Shown: positions 2,983 to 23,005 of the stretch, in pieces | Numbering within the stretch: position 1 is the stretch's first letter | Layout: every line of letters starts with the position of its first letter | DNA from: Chromera velia | Lineage: Eukaryota > Sar > Chromeraceae | DNA: 27,500 nt | Assembly (NCBI GenBank): GCA_018398765.1 | Contig: JAHBMJ010001600.1 | Coordinates: forward strand, 1 to 27,500 | Direction: 5' to 3' | Notes under the pieces: model-generated | What the model saw: the letters and a program-made list of their open reading frames with translations, nothing else | Told to the model about the DNA's origin: nothing | Databases searched by the model: none | Program-made: the position numbers and the translations under genes

Positions 2983-3065
<83 letters not shown>

Positions 3066-4823
3066 GTGTGTGTTTGCCGCGCGCACTTGAGGGGAGCGGA
3101 GTCGTTTCCACGCTCTTGGGGGTTGTGACAATTGAGACGACCCCTCACGGTTGCATGGGGTCTCTTGCCGTTTCGTATAGTCAGTGCCAGACAGAGCCCT
3201 AGACTTATTTACTTACTTAGGGGTTTTGTCGATACTAGGCGGTTTGTTTCGTTGGATCTGCATCGGGACTTACATATCGAACAGGCGTCCTCCCTCCCGA
3301 AAAAGATCCATTCTCTGACCTTTTGCTTCTTCTTTATTTCGATCTGCACTGTTCCCTTCATTCTCTCCCTCAAATTGGATGGATGCAGCTGCCCCTGCCG
3401 ACGCTCAGTCCTCTGGTGGCTTCTGCTGAGGTTTCCCCCCGGACAGGCTCTGCACCCCTGAAGGTTCAACGGAATCAGAAAGGCGGGGGGATCAGGGCGC
3501 TCCACTCCCCGGAGTTCCGACACACCGCGCAGTTGATGGCGTCCTCCCAGAGCCTGGTGCGTCTCTTCGCTCGGGAGTCTCCTGACCGTCTGCCTCTGAT
3601 GGATGGTCCGGAGATCAATTCGTTCGACGCGGTCATTCTCGACACACCAAATGGTCTCGAGCGAATGAGGGTCTCGAAGGTTGGTGCATCAGAGCTCTCC
3701 TCCCGACTGCTTCTACCCCCAGGGGTGGTGTCTGTGTTGGTGGCCTCCGTCGACTCTGGCCGGGGCACTGGCAGGGAGAAGGAGAAGAGCCCCGGGAGGG
3801 CGCTCTCTCTCAGGGCTCTGTGTCAACAGCTTCCAGGTCTCTCTGCAGAACATGTAGCCAGACTGCTGAGGAAGGAACCGAAAGGGGCAGAGACAAAGAC
3901 GGTGGGTGAGTGATTCCAGAATCTCTTTTTCTTTTTTCGTTGCCTTTTGGAAGGCAAACAAAAAACAACAAAGTAGCAGTGTGTTCCATCTGCCTGTCGC
4001 CTTCCAGTAGATCACCCTATTTTTCCGCGTTCATTTTTCGCGGTCATCTCTTCCATCAATGCATCTGATTCTTTCTTCCATGCACTCTTTGACTTGGCTG
4101 TCTTTTTTTCTCTTTCTGCCCTACAGGACTCTGCGGGCCCCTTTTCGTTCTCTTGCCTCTACGCACGGAGCCTGACTGGGAGAGAGACGGCCCCCAAACA
4201 AAACACACTGAGGAACGTGCAGAGCGAGGCTGTGACAAAGAGCCCCTCCCCTCCAAGGTCTCCCCCCCGCCCCCTGGTGATGGAGAGCCCTGCAGGGTCC
4301 CCGACTCGGACGGGCAGGCAGAGGGGACGGGGGGGACAGAGGATGTGTCTGACCTGCACGGCCCCAGACCTGCGTGCCACCTACCGACGGGGGAACCAGA
4401 GAGAGAGCCCCGGCCGGAGATACCCAGAGAGGGGGGATGAGGGTTCGTGGGGTGAGGGGGAAAGAGAGTCTCTGTGGCAACAGAATCCCAACAGCATGTC
4501 TCAACGCTCAAAGGTCATTCAGTGGATTTTGAGAGAGGGGGAGCTTCCTCTGCCTGGGCCTCTGGAGGATGCGAATGAGGAAGCGATTGCTTTGAGGGAA
4601 GTTTTATCGGAGTGCAGAGCCATTGCACTCCAGTGGAGAGTGGGTCATCAGATAGCCAAAAAGGCGTTGCAAGAGAGAGAGGAAGAGGACGCGTTGGTGT
4701 TCAGGGAAAGAGGGGGGGACAACGATGACGTCAGGGGGGGGGGATCGTGGAGTGTTCCAGAGGGAATCGATAAGATGTCTGTGTCCACACTCAGAAGACT
4801 GGTCAGTCAGTCAGTCAGTCAGT

Positions 4824-4855
<32 letters not shown>

Positions 4856-7800
4856 CTTTTCTCTCTATTTTGTGTCTTTTTGCTTTTGCCCTAGCTCTTT
4901 TTCCCCCTCCCGACTGTTGTTCCTCCTGCATTGCGTGGATGAGACGTGCGCCTCGATCAGAGAATGCGTTTACTTTCATACAGAATTCTTTTTCTGTATA
5001 TATATGTATATGTATAGTATGACACATTTCTTCCTGCATTACGTGGATGAGACGTGCGCCTCGATCAGAGAATGCGTTTACTTTCATACAGAATTCTTTT
5101 TCTGTATATATATGTATATGTATAGTATGACACATTTCTTCCTGCATTACGTGGATGAGACGTGCACCTCGATCAGAGAAAGGAGTCTGGGCACTTCATG
5201 TCATCAGAAAGGAGTTACTGTATAAGTATTTCTATTTAGGATGGAAGGGAAGTGCATATCCCTCCCTCCCTCCCTCCCTCCCTCCCTCCCATCGGACGTT
5301 GGCTGGGAACTCGCGCAGACAGGTGACGAAGGCCTGCGCTGGACTGTGAAAATACGAACTCTTGCTTGTCATGTGTCTATGCTGGTAGCTAAAATCTCTA
5401 ACAAGCTAGGTTGAATACATACGTGTACGTATGCAGGTGATGAAAGCCTGGAGAGACAATGCTCATTGGAAAAAGGAAGCTGAGGAACACCGAAGCAGAG
5501 CAGAGAGGGCAGAAAAGGGACGTCTGGCTGCAGACACTGCTCTTCAGGAGGTCAGCCGGTACCGAATATGTCGACGCATGCAGCGGCACATACACTCCTC
5601 AATAATATATTAACGAAGGTGCAGCGCTGTTTGGGAGGGAAGTTGACGTCTTGCGGAGGAACACCGCACTTTTGACCTTCCTCTGCTTAGTTCCTTCCAT
5701 TCTGTCCTTTTCTCCCTCAGTCTGTATCACTCGCCGACTCGCTCGCTCTACTGACGGTCAACTTCATGCACATCTTCCTTCCTTCCTTCTGCAGCTTCAG
5801 ACCACCAGCGCTGCCCAAAAGAACGAGTTGGAGTTTGCACAATACGAAGTCGCAAAGTACGCAGAGGACGCGGTGCAGCAGAGAGCAGAGCTCGCGGACT
5901 CCCTGGCGAGGGTGTCGGAACTCAACGCGGCTCTCCAAGAGGCCAGACAGGACGGGGAGGCAGCCAAACAAGAGGTACGTCGGCATTTATTTTCATACAT
6001 ACAGAAAAAAAAAAAGAGGCCAGACAGGACGGGGAGGCAGCCAAACAAGAGGTACGTCGGCAGCTAGACTGTATGAATAGCATTGCTGCAGAGAAAACAG
6101 ACACGTGGTCTTCGCAGCTGGCTGCGCTACCGAAAAGCTTCTGTGTCAAACACCTTCGCGAAAGAGCGTCCTACAAAGAAGGGAATGAAGCAATTTATCT
6201 GTTGTCACCTTTGTCCTGTCATTATTCTGTCTGTTTTTGAGCATGACGGTTAAGAAATCTTTCTCTACATTCTATCTCTCATGCGGGAGAGTGCATCTTA
6301 GCGGCTATATTGCTTTGACTTCGCACCTGCATGTTTGACTTTTTGCAAGCGCATTTTTGCTCGTGCTCACATGCTTGCATTGAATTAAATGTATTTCACT
6401 ATCCTGACTGCAGCTCCTTTCTCTTTTAATTCTTCCCCTTTCTCTTAAACAAAAAAAAATGTATCCCACTATCCTGACTGCAGCTCCTTTCTGAGCTTTC
6501 AGAACTCCGATCTCGCTTTGAGAAGGCGAGGGAGGAGATCAGAAAGGAACAGGCAGAGACCGACGAGAAGGCAAAGGAGGCAGCCCAAATGAAAGCCGCG
6601 AGAGATGTGGCAGTGGAACAGACCGATGAGGTCAGTCAGAAGAAGCAAATTAGAAACAAAGAAGGAATTTTTTAGGATCGATCAGCGTGGAAGGAATTAT
6701 TTGGCATGGTGATTACCATGAATTGCAAGGAAGCTTACCATTAACAGACCTATAACACCGGTCACTCAGGGTCCCGGGTGATAAAATCTCAAAAACACGT
6801 GCATGTGCACTTGTAATGATTCCTGTCGTAAAGGCGTTCTGCCCAGAGAAAATTGTTGTTTCCCTTCTAGTCCCGTCCCCTCCCTCTTTCAGGTCTCTCT
6901 TGATATTGTCGTGGCCTTTGTGCTGGTTGCTTCAACTGCAGTTGCACCCAAATGCCCTTCTGTCCCTGACGTATATTAATAGTGTTCTTAGTTGTTCTCA
7001 ACTTTTTCCCCTTCCTTCTTGCAGCTGGCAAAGCAATTACGGGAGGAACGCGAGAAGCTGCGAGAGGTCCAAAAGTCGTTCGAGACCGCAGACTACCAGG
7101 CGTTCTCTTTGCAGACAGAACTAGAGGCCGCGAAGAAGGAAATTCAAACCCTCAAATCAGAAGTGGTTAGTAGCTAGCTAGGTTGGCAGTCAACACAAGA
7201 TATATGTCTACTTGGATAGTGAAACAGTTCGACTGGTGTGCATGTTCTCACCGATCGAGTCGTGTATCTCGGTTTGCGATACGCGTCTGCTGCCAATTCG
7301 CTTCTATCCCCCATCTTTCTTTCCTGAAAGTGTCCGCCGAATGCTGATTGCTGCTAAAAGCAAAACAAGGAGACAAAATACATGCAGAATTTCGATCCAA
7401 AATTTTTTTCCCCTCCACTCCGATGCTTCTGCATGCAGGACAATGCCAACGCTGAGAAAGGGGAACTGACGAAGCAAGTCGAGGCTCTGTCTGCCAACGT
7501 GTCTCCCTCCGTCCAGCCAGAAAAGAGGGACGACGTAGAACAGGCGGGTTGGAATCCTCTGGCCGATATTGCAGAGCTGCCCGAGGGGAAGGAAGAGGAG
7601 AATCACGAAAAGGAACCCCGTGAAGGAGAGGGAGGAGGAGACGGTGCCAGTGAGGGGGGGGAGCAGAAAGAGCAAGAGGAGGATACAGGAGGAAGAGGAT
7701 TTCTGGACGCATTCGGACCAGACCCCCCTCAAGAGACCTCCTCAGCCTCTCAAGAGGAGGAGGAGCCCACCTCTGCATCCGCTTCCTCTCGTCCTCTCAT

Positions 7801-9832: not shown

Positions 9833-10998
9833 TGTACATATCTTGATTTTTTAACATAAACATGCGTGTGAAAAGCTTTTTGAAATTTTTCATAACAATT
9901 TTTTTCAAATTCTTTTTAAGACTATGGTTTTGAGGTCCATAATCAAGAATTCTTTTCTTCCATGTCTAGTTCCATGTGGCGAGTTTCAAGTTGTTCGTTC
10001 TTCCGTCCATTTACAAATTAACTGTGGGTATGGTTTGCCTGTCATACCGCGAGCCGTCTCGGCTTTAATTACATAAGCGCACGGACAGACAGGGAGAATG
10101 CATGTGCAAGAATTAATGTTCGCTTAGACTCTTTTCCTCTCTCACACACTGACGCAGGCACATATATACACTCACTCGCACACTCACACACGCAGGGAAG
10201 CCGTTTCGGCCGCGTCGCGTCAATTTTGCGATACCGTCACACTTTTCCTTTCCCTTCATTCAAGCTCAAGCAAGTCGATCGATCAGTCGACCGAGCAGCA
10301 TCAGCACTTGTCATCGTGGTACATCCAGTTGTGCTGTTGGCCTCCTGGAGGAGCTTCCGCGTCTGCAGGAATATTCAATTAAATGGAGGAATGTGCGTTT
10401 TGCCGGTGCACTACCACACGTACAGAGTGCGGGAGACCCCCGCGGTCGGAAAAATCGGAGTCAGACTGAAAGCATGGACAAAAGGGGTGTGATCCCTTAT
10501 CTTGCATCATCAGGAATGAAAAAACAAACAATGTGCATGGACAAAAGGCAGTCAAGCTGGATGCATTCAAGAGGTGTCTTTGTAGGCATGACTGGCCGAA
10601 TGTTTGCGTGCAGATTCAGAGAGACATGGAGAGAATTTGACCATCATAGCGCAGGAGCAACTGAAGATTCGCGGGAAAAATACGGGTAGTGTGTTGAGAG
10701 ATGGCAGAGGGCAGATGACAATCAAGTGAACGAGAGAAGATCAAAGAATGAGTCGGACTAAGCAGGACCGAAGAGAGGGTGTGGGAGAGAGCTGAACCAC
10801 AAATGTAGGGTGGTGGGAAGAAGATCGAGAGAGCGAAGACACAGGACCAGTGAAGCGAACGGAGACTGGATCAGAGGAAGGACTTGAGAGAGGAAGGACG
10901 CACCAGCAAGAGGAACGAATGGACGAAGCCACAAAAGAGGGCCTCAAAAAGAGAAAACCAAACACAAACGTTCAGCCAGATAGACAACAGCCAGTGCA
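9833..10998. other. Intergenic region without a supportable gene
   Basis: AT-rich to about 10060, then mixed composition with a CA-rich stretch at about 10140-10200. Short open frames between 10226 and 10690 lack family resemblance, conserved repeats or paired splice sites, and the longest begins at a non-ATG codon. A further exon of the minus-strand E2 gene could lie here, but I could not identify one. Confidence 0.5.
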
Positions 10999-11072
10999 TG
11001 ACGAGACGAGGACGAGACGAGACGAGACGAGACGAGACGAGACCAGACGAGACGAGACGAGACGAGACGAGA
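10999..11072. repeat. (ACGAG)n pentanucleotide microsatellite
   Basis: About fourteen ACGAG units with a few substitutions (GGACGAG, ACCAG). It creates Arg/Asp/Glu-rich or Ser/Arg/Leu-rich open frames on both strands that I regard as artefacts. Confidence 0.95.
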
Positions 11073-11284
11073 GAAGGGAAAGGCGGGTTGCGAAAAAGAA
11101 GCCCAGGTGAGAGATCGATGTGTTGTGCCAAGCATGTACGTGTCAATGCAGACAGGTTACACATAGGGGTCTCCTCGTGGGAAGGAAGACCCTGGACGAT
11201 AATGACCGCATGAATTCCTGGATTCTCGAAGAAAGGCATAAATGCCCTTTTCCTCCTTTCTCTTCATACTCACAAAAGTGCAGT

Positions 11285-11350
11285 CCAAGAAAGAAGAAGA
11301 AGAAGAAAAAGAGGAGGAGGAGGAGGCGGAGGAGGAAGACGAAAAGAAGA
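11285..11350. repeat. Purine (GAA/GGA)n tract downstream of the E2 gene
   Basis: A 60-odd base AAG/GAA then GAGGAG tract. On the minus strand it is a long pyrimidine run just past the E2 stop codon, so it could serve as the polypyrimidine tract of a further 3' exon. I found no convincing exon behind it. Confidence 0.8.
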
Positions 11351-11357
11351 ATTCTTA

Positions 11358-12197
11358 TCACCAATCAAACAAGCATTGTGAAAATAAGTAAAGCACAGAG
11401 ACGTGCAATGACTGACGTGCTGCGTTGTCGAGAGGAATTTTCTTTTCCTTTGCGCTGGAGAGCATGCTCAGAATGGCGAGTGCGATTGCAGATACCGTCA
11501 GTGTGGGTTTCCAGTCTGTGCCGAGAAGATTTAGGCAGATGTCTCCGTTCGTGTACACATGTGGATGTCTTGGGGCTGGTCTGAGGAAGTACACACTGGG
11601 GGGCACGAGGGGGTATTCGTCTGGGAAGACTACCTTCAGTTTGTACGTCTCTTTTTCGTACAGTGTCCCTTCCACCCCCTTGATCGTGATGATCCATGCG
11701 CGAAGATTGGAACCCACAGAGACACGACAGTTGGGAGGGGGGCTCTTGATGAACTCTTTCAGTTCCTGCAGGGAGAGGGGTGAGTGAAGGTGGGGGGGGG
11801 CACTATAGTCAACTTCCTGTCTCCGAGAAGGAGACGGGACTTCAGAATTCGGCATGTGTGACGCATTTGAGGGGCAGGTTCAGCTAGAACACGAAGGAAA
11901 TCAGGCACATGGAAGAGAAAAGAGGGCGAGGATGCATCCATTCAGACGGCAGGCCACGCTTGGGTAGGTGTGGAGGGCCTTGAGAGAAAGGAGACGGACT
12001 TTCTGGATTCTGTAGTTGGGGTTCCCTGGTGTCCATTTGGCCTTCAGGTGGTTCGATGTGGCGTCTGCCTTCTTCTTCCCTCCCGATTTCTTCCCCACTC
12101 CCGGCAAGACGGCGAGTCTTCGTCGAAAGAGAGAGCCGTGAGCGCATCCCGATAGCCACACAAGAAGAAGAAGAGACACACTGTAGAGACACCGCAT
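11358..12197 (-). CDS. UBE2W-type ubiquitin-conjugating enzyme (E2) with plastid-type bipartite leader
   Basis: Exon 1 is 12197-12000 and exon 2 is 11765 down to the stop at 11358, giving 201 aa. The donor is AAA/GTCCGT and the acceptor CCTGCAG, phase 0. Joining them rebuilds the E2 N-terminal helix (YRIQK then ELKEFIKSPPPN). The UBC core follows: GTLYEKETYKLKV, FPDEYPLVPPSVYF, then HPHVYTNGDICLNLL with the catalytic Cys at residue 143 (codon 11537-11535) and DWKPTLTV. HPH in place of HPN and SNG/TNG-x-ICL are typical of UBE2W and plant UBC15-18 enzymes. Residues 1-20 (MRCLYSVSLLLLVWLSGCAH) look like a signal peptide. Residues 21-62 are rich in Arg/Lys with almost no acid, like a transit peptide. 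This suggests delivery to the plastid or periplastid compartment. An alternative donor, GTCAGT at 11416, could replace the last residues; the Trp-Trp tail of UBE2W is not found. An ATG further upstream at 12275 is in frame but would bury the hydrophobic stretch. Confidence 0.82.
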
Positions 12198-12911
12198 GGT
12201 GGTCCTCTCCTCTCCTCTCTTGATCCACCACACGCGTCCTAAAGGGAACCTCCAAGCATCTGAGATCAGTCGCAAAGACGTTCAATCTTCATCATGCTCT
12301 GTGTGAGAACAGTGGGCACTGGGCAGAACGAGGCTGGCGCTGGCGTGTAGGCACAGGAGGTGATCCGGCCCGGATCGCCCCGGAATTTAAGCGAAGCGGG
12401 GGGGCCGTCGTTCCAGGCCGGGCCCGACCATTCACCTGCAGGGCGCGCGGCCCGGCCGGGCCATTATATATAGCGGACCATTAATATGCTCGCACGGAGT
12501 AACAGCTTCGATAAAGGGGGTACTCAAAAACAATGCTGGTACGCAGCAGCGTCGCAGCTCGACAAGGGGAGAAACCGTTCGATCCGATAAACTCTTTAAG
12601 TCTGACTTCTCCATCTGTGTGTTTGAAGTAATTTGCAGTTGCTGTCGGAACAATGGCGGTCAGTTCTTGCCCTGTCCCTGTCTGTTGATCCGTTTCGTGA
12701 CCTGAGCTCAATGAATTTGAACAGCTGCTTCCCCTCCCCCCCTCTTGTTTGCAGGATCGGTTCCTCATCAAGCCGTCTGTTCTTCCTTCAGAGTCAGTCG
12801 CCCTTCCGGCTTTCTCATAGACACTGCTTTCGACTTGCCAGAAATAACCCTCTAATGCCTGTCAATGTGTATTGAGAGTGAGTGTCTGTTCTGTCCTCGT
12901 GTGTGTGCAGC
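12198..12911. promoter_or_regulatory. Head-to-head promoter region between the E2 and RPL7 genes
   Basis: 714 bases separate the two start codons, so the genes probably share a divergent regulatory region. A GC-rich island at about 12360-12465 contains a 14-bp palindrome GGCCCGGCCGGGCC (12449-12462) and a second GGCCGGGCC at 12416. A TATATATA box-like stretch follows at about 12463-12473. The sequence GTGTGTGCAG ends one base before the RPL7 ATG, indicating a 5' UTR intron. I could not place its donor with confidence. Confidence 0.45.
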
Positions 12912-15900
12912 ATGGCTCCTCCGGAGTCTACTCTGAAGAAGAAGGCCAGGGACGACTCTCTTCTCAAGCAGAAGCTCCAGGCCATCAAGGACAAGCGCGG
13001 CGCGTACGCCACTCGTCAGAAGGCCCTTGCCAAGAGGGGCTTCGCTTACGACAAGGAGTACAAGGCAGCTGCCCAGGAAGTCATCGATGCCAAGAGGTCA
13101 GTGGGTCAGTGGGTGCCTGCTTGAGAAGGTCTCATTCAGCCTGTCTCGCTCTGCTCTCCCTCCAATGCCCCTTGTTTTTTATCCCTATTTGTCCCTCCCT
13201 CCCTGGGTCTGCAGAGCTGCTCGTGCCAGCGGTGGATTCTACCGTGAGGCCGAGCCCAAGGTCATCTTCGCCATCCGCATCAAGGGTATCAACAAGATCG
13301 CGCCCAAGCCCAAGAAGGTGCTCCAGCTGTTCAGACTCAGACAGATCCACAACGGAGTCTTCATCAAGGTGGGTTGGCCAGCCTGTCAGGTGATTGAATT
13401 TGCGTAGCTCTATGTCTGAGAAGGTCAATTTGAGGTAGCGACAAAAATCGAACGGACCAGAGCCCAGTGGCCGGGGTGGTGGTGGCGGGTGAAAAGAGAC
13501 GTCTTTGTCGGATTGGGAGGCCAGCTTTTCGCTCCTGTGCTGATTCACGCGAGAAGAGGAGAGAAAAGGGCTTACAGGCACCGAGGAGGTGAATGGAATG
13601 AAGCGGAGGAGGAAGGGGACGGAGTGAGAGGGGGTGGAGACGATGTGACGTGTTTTTTTTTTTCTGGAGATCAGTATCTGCACTCAAGTAGAACGATTGG
13701 AGAAGTGTGGTAATTGTTCCAATATTCACGTCTTTCTTTGATTGGCACAGTCACGAACTGGAGTTGTTGGTACTGACTGCATTGATTGAACGTGCGATTT
13801 GCAGGTGAACACTGCCACCAAGCAGATGCTCAAGCTTATCGAGCCCTTCATCGCCTACGGGTAAGGAGCAGAGGAAGATTGGGCATTTGGGGGGACAGAG
13901 AACGGGGGGGAGGTGTGGCGATCGTCTTGTTTTCTAAGGAGACCCCTACACTTCCTTTTTTTTCGATGCTTTGTGCGTCGCAAAGTGGAAGGGGCGACGA
14001 ATTCCGTGAGGCCAAGCACACGTTTTTTCATTTCTGATTTTTTGTTCTTGCAGATACCCCAGCCTCTCCACCGTCCGCCAGCTCCTCTACAAGCGTGGCT
14101 TCGGTGAGTGACGCACGCAAACAGAAGCGGAATGGAGAAGTGGCGAGAGAATGAGGAATAAGGCGACAGGCCTGACTGGTGCCGTTCATTTTTCTCTCAG
14201 TTCGTTTTTTCTTCCCGTCTTCTTCCCTCCAGAAGAAGCTGTACCCTTCTGTCGCACTTCTGGTCCTTCGGTGGCTTCGTCTCACATGTCCCCCTGTGGT
14301 TACGTGCTTTCCGGAAGGTTTCTGTCTTTTTTTTTGTGCAACTCGCGCGGTTTTGTGTGGATGTTTCTCTCTTTCAGGCAAGGTGAACAAGCAGCGCATC
14401 CCTCTCCGTGACAACACCACCATCGCCGATAACCTCGGCAAGGTCAGTCTTCCTTCCTAGCCTCTCTGTTTGGTTGTTTGTTGTTTGTTTATGTTTGTCT
14501 TTGTATGCATGTGTGTTTGCCGTCAAGCCATACAACTGGGAGTTGGGATGACGACAGGGACTGCTACACCGAAGAGGGGCATCCGGTCAGGGAGGGCTTT
14601 GTGGGCAATCCGGAATCTCGGAAAGACGCAGGGAGGACCCAGAGAAGCTGCCTGTCTTTGTGAGCGGAGGAGAGGTGAAGGTTCCTGCTCTGGGACGGAC
14701 GGGAAGAGAATGAGGAGACGGTACTGACCTTGAGAGGGCTACCTAAGGTGCCTTTCTTGGAGTTGGCTTGCAATCCGGGTGATGGCAATGATTTCTGAGG
14801 GGTCTCCCGCAGCTTCTGTTTTGGCTTTTGGTTTTGCAGGATCAAGCCTGCCCTGCCTTAGAGCGTTTGTTTTTCTGCGGTAGCAGCCGGGCAGGGAGAG
14901 GACAAAATGGAATCGGGGGGACTAATGGCACCGGAGGAGGGGGGGGGGGAACTATGTGTCTGTTGGAAGTTGAAGATGAGGGGGGAAGACCAGATGACTT
15001 AGTGGTGGCTCCTGGACCTTATCTATATAGATTTTCAAGCACATGCCATTCTCTGGAGCTCTTCTCTTCATATCCATCCCATTCTCTGGAGCTCTTCTCT
15101 TCAGGTCCATGCCATTCTCTGGAGCTCTTCTCTTCATATCCATGCCATTCCCTGGAGCTCTTCTCTTCATATCCATGCCATTCCCTGTCTGCACATCTCT
15201 GATTGACACCTCTTATTTTCAGTCCCTCTGTGTGTTCTCCCTTCTTTGCCGCCACCATCTGCCCGACCCTCTCCTTCCGCCTGCTCCCCCCGCTTTTTCT
15301 ATTCCCTCCTGTCCACCCTGGTTTGCCTGTTTCTGTCCTTCTTTGCTTATTTGTGTTTTGCTCCCTGTGGTCTTTCTCCTGGGATTTCCTGTCGGGTGTC
15401 TTCTTCTGCTGTCTTTCGATCCGTCTGTTCATCCTCCTCCTCCTTTTGGTCCCTCACACTCTCTTTCCGTTATCTCCCCGCCCCTTACATGCTTATCCCC
15501 TTGGTTTGTCTGAAGACTCCTGCCTTCTTTGTCCTTCCGGTGCCTTTCTGTTGCTTCGACACGTCCGCTTGCTCCTGATTCCTGCGTCTTCGTCACCTTT
15601 TTTCTCTTCTTACATGCTTTGCCCGCCTTTTCCCACCGTCTGTCGCCCGCCCACATTCTTTTCGCGCAGTTTTCGCCCTATCCCCTTGTATCTCTCCCCT
15701 GACTGGAGCGGTATCTTCCTTCCAAAGCCTCTGTGCTTTCCCTGTCCTCTCATTTTTTTATTTTTTTTCCTTTTCCATCCGCTGCCCCAACCGCATGCAC
15801 CCGCCTCGCATTTCCCTGAGCGTCGTTTTCTGTTGTCTTCTTGCTCTGTCCCTGCTATTTCTCCTCATTTTGTATCCATCTGTTCTTTTCTGCTGCTGTC

Positions 15901-16180
15901 TGTTCCCGGCTCACACATGAGTGTGTCTATCGATGCACCCCTCCATTCACCTTTCCCTGTCCACTTGCAGTGCGGCATTGAGGGTATGGAGGATCTCGTC
16001 CACGAGATTGTCACCTGCGGCCCCCACTTCAAGGAGGCCACCAACTTCCTCTGGCCCTTCAAGCTGAACCCCCCCAAGGGAGGGTATGTCTCCAAGAGAC
16101 ACGGATACAACGAGATCAGAGGGGGAGACTGGGGCAACCGCGAGGATCTGATCAACCAGATGGTCAAGAAGATGAACTAA
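12912..16180 (+). CDS. RPL7: 60S ribosomal protein L7 (uL30), six coding exons, 239 aa
   Basis: Cytosolic large-subunit ribosomal protein. Exons: 12912-13096, 13215-13368, 13805-13860, 14054-14103, 14378-14442, 15971-16180. They total 720 nt, and every junction keeps frame. The N-terminus is the basic extension of eukaryotic L7 ([15 protein letters not shown], then [20 protein letters not shown]). The L30-type core follows ([55 protein letters not shown], then [19 protein letters not shown]). The C-terminal part includes [27 protein letters not shown] and ends in INQMVKKMN. Length matches the usual 240-250 aa. Codon use is strongly biased to C/G-ending codons, as expected for a highly expressed gene. 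Intron 5 is 1528 bp, far longer than the others, and contains a minisatellite and a pyrimidine-rich stretch. A candidate AATAAA poly(A) signal lies near 16422. The start sits directly behind a GTGCAG acceptor, implying a spliced 5' UTR. Confidence 0.97.
15043..15192. repeat. 33-bp minisatellite, about 4.5 copies, in RPL7 intron 5
   Basis: Units start at 15043, 15076, 15109, 15142 and a partial one at 15175. Consensus begins ATGCCATTCTCTGGAGCTCT and ends TTCATATCC, with few substitutions. The 33-bp period is a multiple of three, so both strands stay open, but the block lies inside an intron of a conserved gene. Confidence 0.95.
15230..15900. other. Pyrimidine-rich tract filling the 3' half of RPL7 intron 5
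   Basis: The plus strand is overwhelmingly C and T for about 670 bases. This leaves a continuous open frame that runs into the real last exon by chance. No conserved protein or small RNA signature was recognised in it. Confidence 0.7.
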
Positions 16181-16625
16181 GCAGCGCGCGGTTTGGTTCA
16201 GTGGATGGAGGGCGTGGCATGTTGAGGAAGGAGAGGGGAAATGTGGGGTGGTTGAAGTTATTTAATCAGTAGTTGAGCCCTGCAAACTCCTGCAGTTTCT
16301 CGTGCTTCCGTTTCGGAAGTCAGAAACAACTTTCCTTCCTTATGGCCAAAGATACTTTCGACAGCTTCTGCAACAAAAAAAAATATACAGAAACGATCAT
16401 ATTATAATAGTTATTGGATGAAATAAAATGAATTGAAATGAGACTTGCGATTAATATTATGTTCTAGCTGTTCTTCCAGCGAAGTTTCATTTCAGTGAAC
16501 ACATGCACTAGTACATCATACACGTACTGTATGTCGATCATATCATAGTACATGAATAAGTTGAAGCTTAGCTATACGCACTATATTATAGCCTAGATCA
16601 TAGCTATAGTCTATATACAATACAT
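16181..16625. other. RPL7 3' UTR and AT-rich flank
   Basis: The first ~150 bases are the probable 3' UTR; part of it (GCAGCGCGCGGTTTG..., GTTGAGCCCTG) recurs in the pseudogene near 22880-22990. AATAAA at about 16422 is a candidate poly(A) signal. Beyond it the DNA is AT-rich with no gene seen. Confidence 0.55.
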
Positions 16626-17787: not shown

Positions 17788-17987
17788 CAACGACCAAACC
17801 AACGACGAGAGTGTCTGGATTTGGCGAGTTGATGAAGGAGGACGCTGTGGCCAGTGGCAAGCCGAACAAGCACTGGAGAGGCGCTCCCTGTACATGACTG
17901 AGTGCTCAAACGGGGACGGAGACGGAGACAGAAAATGAGATCGAAGGAGACGGAGACGGGGAAAGAGGGGACCGACTTCGAAAAGAA
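17788..17987 (+). repeat. Dispersed repeat A, copy 1 (~200 bp)
   Basis: The block from CAACGACC to the end of ACCGACTTCGAAAAGAA is clearly homologous, by eye at roughly 85% or more, to 22547-22753 in the same orientation. One plus-strand frame reads through copy 1 (DESVWIWRVDEGG, then LERRSLYMTECSNGDGDGD). In copy 2 the same frame is preserved apart from one stop codon, so the repeat may descend from coding sequence. GA-rich ends differ in length between copies. Confidence 0.85.
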
Positions 17988-18671: not shown

Positions 18672-19355
18672 TCAGAGGAGATCCTCAAGGACCCCAGCAC
18701 CCTCACCCCCCCCCTTCTCCGAGGAGTCAGAACCGTCATCACTCGCCTTCTGGAGATCTGAAGATTCGCTGAGAGCGTCTGCAATTGGATCAGAATGGGT
18801 AACGGGGTTTGACAATCTTCCAGTTTCCTTCTTCGTTCCTGTTCGTGTAGAAGGAGGTTGATTTGGTTGTACGGGTGCTTCTCCCGCGGGAGAGGACGAT
18901 GGCGAAGGGGGAGAAGGAGAAGGATTCGGAGCTCCTGGCAAACCAGAAGCAGCCGCGGCGGCATCACCAACAGTCGCGGAAGCCGATGGCAAAGGGGAAG
19001 AAGGAGAAGGATTCGGAGCTCCTGGCAAACCAGAAGCAGCCGCGGCCGCATCACCAACAGTCGCGGAAGCCGATGGCGAAGGGGAAGAAGGAGAAGGATT
19101 CGGAGCTCCTGGCAAACCAGAAGCAGCTGCGGCGGCATCACCAACAGTCGCGGAAGCCGATGGCGAAGGGGAAGAAGGAGAAGGATTCGGAGCTCCTGAC
19201 AATCCAGAAGCGGAAGCGGTAGCATGCCCCATTCCTGCATACAGACACCCAATACAGTCATATCTTCGGCTCGATGCAAATGCAGAAGCGCACCGCCATT
19301 GGGCTACAGAAAGAGAGACAAACAGAGGCACGAGGCTCGCAAGAGTCACTTCCAT
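18672..19355 (-). CDS. Signal-peptide protein with 29-residue Ala/Ser/Pro repeats, possible plastid import leader
   Basis: The 227-aa frame starts at ATG 19355, chosen because it gives a classic signal peptide (MEVTLASLVPLFVSLSVAQ, then WRCASA). An in-frame ATG lies 11 codons upstream at 19388. Cleavage after ASA would leave Phe at +1 (ASA/FASSRR), the context used by plastid-destined proteins of diatoms and other algae with red complex plastids. After a short Cys-containing segment come about 3.5 repeats of a 29-residue unit (SGLPGAPNPSPSS, then SASATVGDAAAAA). An acidic, Ser-rich tail ends VLEDLL. There is no catalytic motif; a secreted or plastid-surface low-complexity protein is possible. 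A GTGAGG donor-like site near 18714 means further exons may exist. The 87-bp DNA repeat keeps other frames open as well, so coding status is not certain. Confidence 0.5.
   Translation of the reverse strand: MEVTLASLVPLFVSLSVAQWRCASAFASSRRYDCIGCLYAGMGHATASASGLSGAPNPSPSSPSPSASATVGDAAAAASGLPGAPNPSPSSPSPSASATVGDAAAAASGLPGAPNPSPSSPLPSASATVGDAAAAASGLPGAPNPSPSPPSPSSSPAGEAPVQPNQPPSTRTGTKKETGRLSNPVTHSDPIADALSESSDLQKASDDGSDSSEKGGGEGAGVLEDLL
18900..19205. repeat. 87-bp minisatellite, about 3.5 copies
   Basis: GGATTCGGAGCTCCTGGCAA recurs at 18922, 19009, 19096 and 19183, exactly 87 bp apart, with only scattered substitutions between units. The period equals 29 codons. On the minus strand it encodes the Ala/Ser/Pro repeat of the 18672-19355 frame. 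Confidence 0.95.
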
Positions 19356-22546: not shown

Positions 22547-22753
22547 CAACGACCGGACCAACGACGAGAGCGTCTAGATTGGGCGAGTTGATGAAGGAGG
22601 ACGCTGGGGCCAGTGGAGAGCCGAACGAGCACTGGAGAGGCGCTCCCTGTACATGACCGAGTGCTCAAACGGAGACGGTGAAGGAGAAGGAGACGGAAAC
22701 TGAGAAGAAGAAGGAGGCGGAGACGGAGAGAGAAAGGACCGACTTCGAAAGGA
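22547..22753 (+). repeat. Dispersed repeat A, copy 2 (~207 bp)
   Basis: Homologous to 17788-17987 in the same orientation, from CAACGACC to GACCGACTTCGAAA, with longer GA-rich spacing near its end. The frame open in copy 1 has a TAG here after DESV. The copy abuts the RPL7 fragment that starts 38 bp downstream. Confidence 0.85.
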
Positions 22754-22790: not shown

Positions 22791-23005
22791 AGAGCCAGGG
22801 TTACAACGAGATCAGAGGGGGCGAGCTCGGAAAGCGCGAGAATCTGAACAATCAGACAGTCAAGAAGATTCACTGGGCAGCGCGCGGTTTGATCCGGTGG
22901 AGAGCATGGCATGTTGTGGACGGAGACGTTGGGAAGGGGAATTGAGGGGCGCCAGATGGAGTCTATGGTTTATTACAATTGAGCCCTGAAGGCTCCAAAG
23001 CCTTT
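22791..23005 (+). pseudogene. Truncated RPL7 pseudogene (end of last exon plus 3' UTR)
   Basis: 22801 onward matches the end of RPL7 exon 6 from TACAACGAGATCAGAGGGGG (16105) through the stop region and into the 3' UTR (GCAGCGCGCGGTTTG, then GGCATGTTG and TTGAGCCCTG). The translated part reads YNEIRGGELGKRENLNNQ against [18 protein letters not shown] in the gene. The stop TAA has become TGG, so the frame reads on. Only the last ~25 codons are present. Because no intron boundary is included, retroposition and DNA duplication cannot be told apart. Confidence 0.9.

Follow-up and report, generated by a model that had tools for sequence, protein, structure and literature searches.

We find that the window, which is the whole 27,500-base stretch of DNA analysed here and makes up the entire contig C1598 in an assembly of 177.8 Mb, carries on its minus strand an apparently intact gene for a ubiquitin-conjugating enzyme (E2). 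We propose, with a probability of roughly 0.86, that this gene encodes the E2 serving the periplastid (SELMA-type) import machine in an alga with a complex plastid of red type, and that it is orthologous to the apicoplast enzyme E2Ap; very probably the known apicoplast/SELMA family of E2s gains a new algal member with it. The gene model, the UBE2W class, the E2Ap orthology, the leader-like N-terminus and a set of leader-bearing Der1, Cdc48 and ubiquitin genes can be read from the sequences themselves, and from these we infer the location, role and substrates of the enzyme. In the mechanism that we favor, the leader would send the E2 into the periplastid space, where Cys143 would be charged with ubiquitin or with a related modifier, for instance the leader-bearing ubiquitin of the same genome. 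The E2 would then hand this modifier to proteins emerging via the Der1 channel, and the marked cargo would be pulled in by Cdc48. The less familiar point is that the SELMA E2 would belong to the UBE2W class.

The E2 gene and its class

The full model has three exons with in-phase junctions and encodes 202 residues. Exon 1 (12000..12197, minus strand) is 198 bases long and encodes the 66 residues MRCLYSVSLLLLVWLSGCAHGSLFRRRLAVLPGVGKKSGGKKKADATSNHLKAKWTPGNPNYRIQK, comprising a signal-peptide-like part (residues 1-21), a basic transit-like stretch, the E2Ap-type segment HLKAKWTPGNPN and the start of helix 1 (YRIQK). Its ATG at 12197, in the context ACCATG, is the sole ATG from the upstream in-frame stop to the splice site. 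Intron 1 (11766..11999, minus strand, 234 bases, GT...AG) is in phase 0, with the donor AAA/GTCCGT at 12000 and the acceptor TGCAG/GAACTG at 11765. Exon 2 (11417..11765, minus strand) encodes the UBC core, with the UBE2W-class HPH triad at residues 133-135 and the catalytic cysteine in the context GDIC143; the PF00179 profile scores 109.7 bits against a cut-off of 27 (E 1.1e-31), in agreement with the catalytic site originally named. The splice from 12000 to 11765 had also been predicted, and it stands: the phase is 0 on both sides, and the junction lies within helix 1, where RIQK/ELKEF resembles Plasmodium YRIQKEL and human RLQKEL. Likeness to Plasmodium reaches further upstream, with 13 of 19 residues identical between HLKAKWTPGNPNYRIQKEL and HIKTKYNLGNANYRIQKEL; this similarity extends into the exon-1 peptide and so speaks for exon 1 as a coding part of the E2 gene.

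The 3' end of the gene differs from the original prediction, in which it ran from 12197 to a stop at 11358. The start codon and exons 1 and 2 of that span hold, and the predicted C-terminus is a read-through into intron 2 (10363..11416, minus strand, 1054 bases, GT...AG), which contains it together with its stop. Nothing in the UBE2W tail corresponds to the final 19 residues of the read-through frame, and an in-phase exon 3 (10301..10362, minus strand), missed previously, restores that tail as (H)AEAPPGGQQHNWMYHDDKC followed by a stop. The donor of exon 2 is CAC/GTCAGT at 11417 and the acceptor of exon 3 is CCTGCAG at 10362; the split codon CAC leads into DNAAHAEAPPGGQQHNWMYHDDKC and the stop. 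We sought exon 3 as the source of a UBE2W-type tail, and the tail was then seen in the alignment with human UBE2W 2MT6, which extends to the final residue of that chain. The exon ends in WMYHDDKC, and the pattern W.[YF]HDD.C followed by a stop, derived from exon 3 itself and from UBE2W, was found once in six frames over all 27,500 bases of the window.

To place the enzyme among E2s, we compared the 202-residue model with 177,635 distinct PDB sequences by phmmer. Among the best 60 of 288 matches, two Plasmodium E2s come first (2H2Y, 170 bits, E 5.9e-49; 2FO3, 167 bits, E 5.9e-48), followed by two UBE2W chains, human 2MT6 (118 bits, E 4.8e-33) and 8A58 (113 bits), then UbcA1 3WE5 (92 bits) and UBE2W 2A7L (90 bits); the best E2 outside the W class in this set scores 81 bits against 118 for UBE2W. 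The core shares 67 of its 113 positions with 2H2Y. The 2H2Y match begins 16 residues ahead of helix 1, within exon 1; at this point the window E2 has 61 residues including the leader, whereas the 2MT6 chain has 5. UBE2W, UbcA1 (3WE5) and the plant enzymes UBC15/16/18 share with the window E2 the HPH triad, an RxxKEL-type helix 1, a PLDN/PPDN motif and the WxYHDDxC tail, which here comes from exon 3; the segment of the tail between DN and W has diverged. The window reads YRIQKE against the RRxxKE family variant given in PMC4630614, and 2MT6 itself reads KRLQKE. Passages of the same paper treat the replacement of HPN by HPH as a trait unique to this family, identify 3WE5 as fungal UbcA1, and describe 2FO3 as the search model for solving a Ube2w-family structure, with no plastid link drawn there. 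Judged by its HPH triad and WxYHDDxC tail, the window E2 is a member of the UBE2W class that has diverged from canonical UBE2W, and the original assignment of the core to this class is borne out by its greater closeness to UBE2W than to other E2s.

When 2H2Y itself was the query, the nearest chains outside Plasmodium were from UBE2W (86.8, 84.3 and 80.2 bits), with other E2s at 77.3 bits, a narrow gap; because this lead is narrow, the class of the Plasmodium E2 rests partly on a tree and on the algal intermediate. The tree was built from 12 rows, several of them fragmentary and two with less than half of the columns filled, and its outgroup consisted of six other E2 pieces from the same genome only. 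The six W-class rows are set apart by a branch supported at 100/99 and recovered in all 200 bootstrap trees; human UBE2W, UbcA1 and a W-type fragment on contig C2438 fall together at 90/91, a grouping displayed as an open fork. The window E2 groups with 2H2Y and 2FO3 at 94/90; a tree with apicoplast E2s and UBE2W had first been suggested as a check. By its top PDB matches and this grouping, the window E2 is an ortholog, at the level of sequence comparison, of the apicoplast E2Ap PF3D7_1345500.

The fragment on C2438 bears on how this gene relates to an ordinary UBE2W. PF00179 has 37 matches in the assembly, 34 of them over the cut-off. With the window protein as query there are eight matches, two of which are its own gene, and only the one on C2438 among the other six has HPH. 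This fragment (loci L012/L032, exons near 3044-3780) reads SPEHPHCYSNGHICLSVLG and then, in the next exon, WTPAMTVHSTALSILSMLSSCKKK, and UBE2W is its nearest PDB chain with 65.9 bits, while 2H2Y scores 53.5. Two exons were seen; a motif search of the flanking stretch found no tail exon, and the 5' DNA reads N. The exons are preceded by a tandem array (unit beginning YFCLPSVQPMDS) and by the unreadable DNA. Going by these sequences, part of a canonical UBE2W gene coexists in the genome with the leader-bearing copy.

Could the window gene instead be the host's ordinary cytosolic UBE2W, with exon 1 brought in by a mis-joined or alternative transcript? We consider this very unlikely indeed. Its core and tail are clearly UBE2W-like and, with the N-terminus of the C2438 copy unreadable, the cytosolic one of the two is not told apart, as this reading would allow. 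Against it, the second Met of the model comes only at residue 167, helix 1 requires exon 1, the exon-1 residues resemble Plasmodium E2Ap and fall outside the human UBE2W alignment, and the fragment on C2438 offers a second, canonical UBE2W.

Two gene names occur for the Plasmodium enzyme, MAL13P1.227 and PF3D7_1345500, which we take to be one gene; their reported sizes of 32.8 kDa and 278 aa agree. Cryptosporidium lacks an apicoplast, so an E2 branch restricted to Plasmodium and T. gondii would fit a link to the plastid. Such a branch is described for MAL13P1.227 in the part of PMC2408969 that covers its 2008 E2 tree, an analysis that included Cryptosporidium. According to PMC12007708, as far as its relevant passages go, 2H2Y is PF3D7_1345500 and 2FO3 its P. 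vivax homologue. A passage of PMC4053746 gives PF3D7_1345500 a length of 278 aa, of which the 28-aa signal peptide is removed after apicoplast translocation. In the sections of PMC3681736 consulted, MAL13P1.227 is the apicoplast-located Plasmodium homolog, TgE2Ap lies at the organelle periphery and its loss impairs apicoplast import; Cys573 and His565 of TgE2Ap are critical, His563 is likely dispensable, and apicomplexans have HxH. The E2Ap proteins (PF3D7_1345500, 2H2Y, 2FO3, TgE2Ap) have a leader, as the window E2 appears to, and share with it an N-terminal stretch of the type HxKxK-xxGNxNYRIQKEL, and the spacing of H133, H135 and C143 equals that of H563, H565 and C573 in TgE2Ap. They differ in that the window has HPH where 2H2Y has HTH and TgE2Ap has HVH, and in that Trp follows the catalytic Cys in the window E2 and Tyr in Plasmodium. 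The 61 residues ahead of helix 1 in the window E2 compare with reported precursors of 278 aa / 32.8 kDa in Plasmodium and 70.4 kDa in Toxoplasma. Previous placements speak against the UBE2W reading, or at any rate differ from it: in PMC2408969 the MAL13P1.227 branch adjoins the UEVs, not a named W class, and in PMC3681736 (2013) TgE2Ap was modelled on yeast Ubc4, as the cited portions of both papers have it.

The putative leader and candidate companion import proteins

The signal-plus-transit leader that was originally described is apparent in the sequence. The E2 starts with the hydrophobic stretch MRCLYSVSLLLLVWLSGCAHG, followed in residues 22-61 by 10 Lys/Arg and one Asp/Glu, as called by eye and from composition and hydropathy. 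Among 80 open frames of the window with an ATG start and at least 61 aa, only E2 exon 1 has at least 10 basic and at most two acidic residues together with a hydropathy peak, over 11 residues, no lower than that of the E2; the limits were set post hoc, and the count therefore serves as a description. With looser limits, a scan of the light-harvesting (LHC) loci returned several frames that look like chance only, and because of such chance-looking leaders the leader taken alone is weak evidence.

A basic flank past a hydrophobic stretch could likewise belong to a membrane anchor with its N-terminus out and C-terminus in, which counts against the SELMA reading. The positive-inside rule places a basic flank on the cytosolic side. 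With 10 Lys/Arg and a single acid in residues 22-61, this rule favors a cytosolic C-terminus, and an uncleaved signal anchor would tether the E2 to the ER membrane on its cytosolic side as an ordinary ERAD-type enzyme, not a plastid one. We think this unlikely: the hydrophobic stretch is short and is followed by AHG-S, by eye a plausible cleavage site, Der1, Cdc48 and ubiquitin of the same genome bear comparable leaders, and the Plasmodium and Toxoplasma orthologues sit in the apicoplast.

The organism is very probably photosynthetic, because the assembly holds 58 LHC-family matches, counted exon by exon; in this its probable way of life, as read from the genome, is unlike that of the hosts of E2Ap. 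For one LHC exon the best PDB match is the multi-domain LHCI-11 (9VFJ, 85 bits), followed by antenna proteins with mostly diatom-, cryptophyte- and red-type names. Photosynthesis, taken with the Plasmodium-like E2 and the size of the genome, tentatively suggests a chromerid such as Chromera velia.

We searched the same assembly for partners of a periplastid E2, judging their leaders by eye. DER1 has six matches: those on C3784 and C1678 bear leaders, that on C2075 starts without one, and the remaining three cover inner profile positions only, two of them in identical DNA. CDC48_N has two, one leader-bearing (C3521) and one plain (C3757). From 63 ubiquitin matches 20 were cut as loci and 13 read, and one of these 13 bears a leader (C2371), starting MKSSVQYCVALCLAAFFVAESSTLSRR and ending in a ubiquitin domain with LRLRGG. 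In all four companions (C3784, C1678, C3521 and C2371) the leader begins at the first Met downstream of an in-frame stop. The ubiquitin locus (L054, C2371:18091-18291, minus strand) appears to have an intron within the ubiquitin domain and is a candidate plastid ubiquitin, or PUBL.

The genome thus resembles the SELMA of red complex plastids in having leader-bearing Der1, Cdc48, ubiquitin and E2 together, and differs from it in that leader-bearing E1 and Ufd1 were not found: none of four E1 matches on three contigs of the assembly was seen to bear a leader, and the start of its single Ufd1 match is unreadable. A weak E1-like fragment, PTETAHVVQWARDVFHGLFFEGP (L040, C1503:58808-59032, minus strand), has stop codons within the match and could be a second E1 exon or a relic. 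The earlier suggestion of a SELMA-type E2 gains from this set and from the Plasmodium apicoplast E2s being the best relatives, while location and role are still inferred. It is very unlikely, in our view, that the E2 is imported and serves some purpose other than protein import, such as general periplastid ubiquitin chemistry. Such a role would be compatible with what the sequence shows, a leader and orthology only; the import role reported for TgE2Ap (PMC3681736) and the leader-bearing Der1/Cdc48/ubiquitin set speak for a part in the import machine instead.

Three of the four companions have RGG where the leader ends or close to that point: AVLRLRGGAGDGEE in Der1 (L018, C1678), GDLRGGAVAAA in Cdc48 (L036, C3521) and VLNIRGGDDGG in ubiquitin (L054, C2371). 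None was seen in the other Der1 (C3784), and the E2 leader has only KKSGGKKK, without RGG. The motif resembles the C-terminus of ubiquitin itself; it is conceivable as a processing site, and RGG occurs by chance in other frames too. Passages of PMC5487736 describe an RGG ahead of the ubiquitin domain in Toxoplasma PUBL, and Chromera velia ubiquitin homologues appear there in the legend of a plastid/cytoplasmic tree.

The question of N-terminal tagging

How cargo is marked at the periplastid membrane is unsettled, and membership in the UBE2W class ties this question to a family with a known and unusual chemistry. In the general model, imported cargo crosses the membrane N-terminus first. One idea, which we regard as doubtful, is that the red-plastid import E2 is a UBE2W recruited for tagging free, flexible N-termini: cargo would arrive transit end first, and a single modifier on its alpha-amine would give Cdc48 a handle without a lysine or a chain. 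Direct N-terminal tagging of cargo by the window E2 has perhaps one chance in five. The HPH triad with its tail, cargo arriving N-terminus first and the dispensable lysines of PUBL count for it and would make it attractive.

In the portion of PMC4630614 concerned, the triad and tail are linked to alpha-amine ubiquitin transfer, and UBE2W is said to work slowly even without an E3. As excerpted, PMC5487736 reports that PUBL can do without four of its five lysines and that the fifth could not be tested; it also relates work by Lau et al. in P. tricornutum, in which import was abolished when all transit-peptide lysines were mutated and returned once a lysine stood at another site in the transit peptide. 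This lysine dependence in the diatom is in tension with N-terminal tagging. Other points count against it. With recombinant PfE1/E2Ap and ubiquitin, ubiquitylation was undetected until an E3 was added, according to a passage of PMC3681736, and this need contrasts with the slow, E3-free activity of UBE2W; the tail of the window E2 has diverged between DN and W; and in the Plasmodium enzyme both the P of HPH and the Trp that follows are gone. N-terminal tagging would fit the four dispensable PUBL lysines and must be squared with the transit-peptide lysines reportedly needed in a diatom. The algal E2 has kept HPH and the tail, which makes N-terminal tagging testable with an enzyme from a non-pathogen.

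The published record, as far as the parts we cite go, poses the same question: a 2018 review names as the remaining question what the modifier PUBL does mechanistically, and the PUBL paper (PMC5487736) asks what the target of PUBL is. In the openly accessible literature searched, we found no statement that the SELMA E2 is of the UBE2W class; the algal gene may well already be annotated in gene databases. The word UBE2W is absent from the main texts of PMC2408969, PMC12007708, PMC3681736 and PMC5487736. In papers that pair UBE2W with Plasmodium (including PMC4630614 and PMC11354881), the titles and opening abstract lines do not have the plastid E2 as their subject. Literature that names both the apicoplast and UBE2W mentions the two apart, in the passages seen, and notes a UBE2W homologue in Apicomplexa; SELMA, ubiquitin-conjugating and Chromera velia all occur in PMC5756292 and in PMC6564033.

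Surroundings of the gene in the window

The first two coding exons of ribosomal protein L7 (uL30) lie at 12912..13407 on the plus strand, a divergent neighbor outside the E2 system. Against the PDB, this two-exon piece matches 9SPJ first and 5XXB, presumably from Toxoplasma, second, with others close behind. The start codons of E2 and L7 are about 0.7 kb apart and divergent, so that 12197-12912 is a possible shared promoter region. Rfam gave no matches in the window. Tandem arrays occur at 18892-19225 (87-base unit), 15034-15198 (33 bases) and 4920-5180 (108 bases); all three units are multiples of three, and each array overlaps long open frames. There are also two pairs of dispersed direct repeats, 17788-17928 with 22547-22687 (91% alike) and 16095-16205 with 22791-22901 (80% alike), possibly the remains of a mobile element. 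The two members of the latter pair have a 12-residue peptide in common in one frame.
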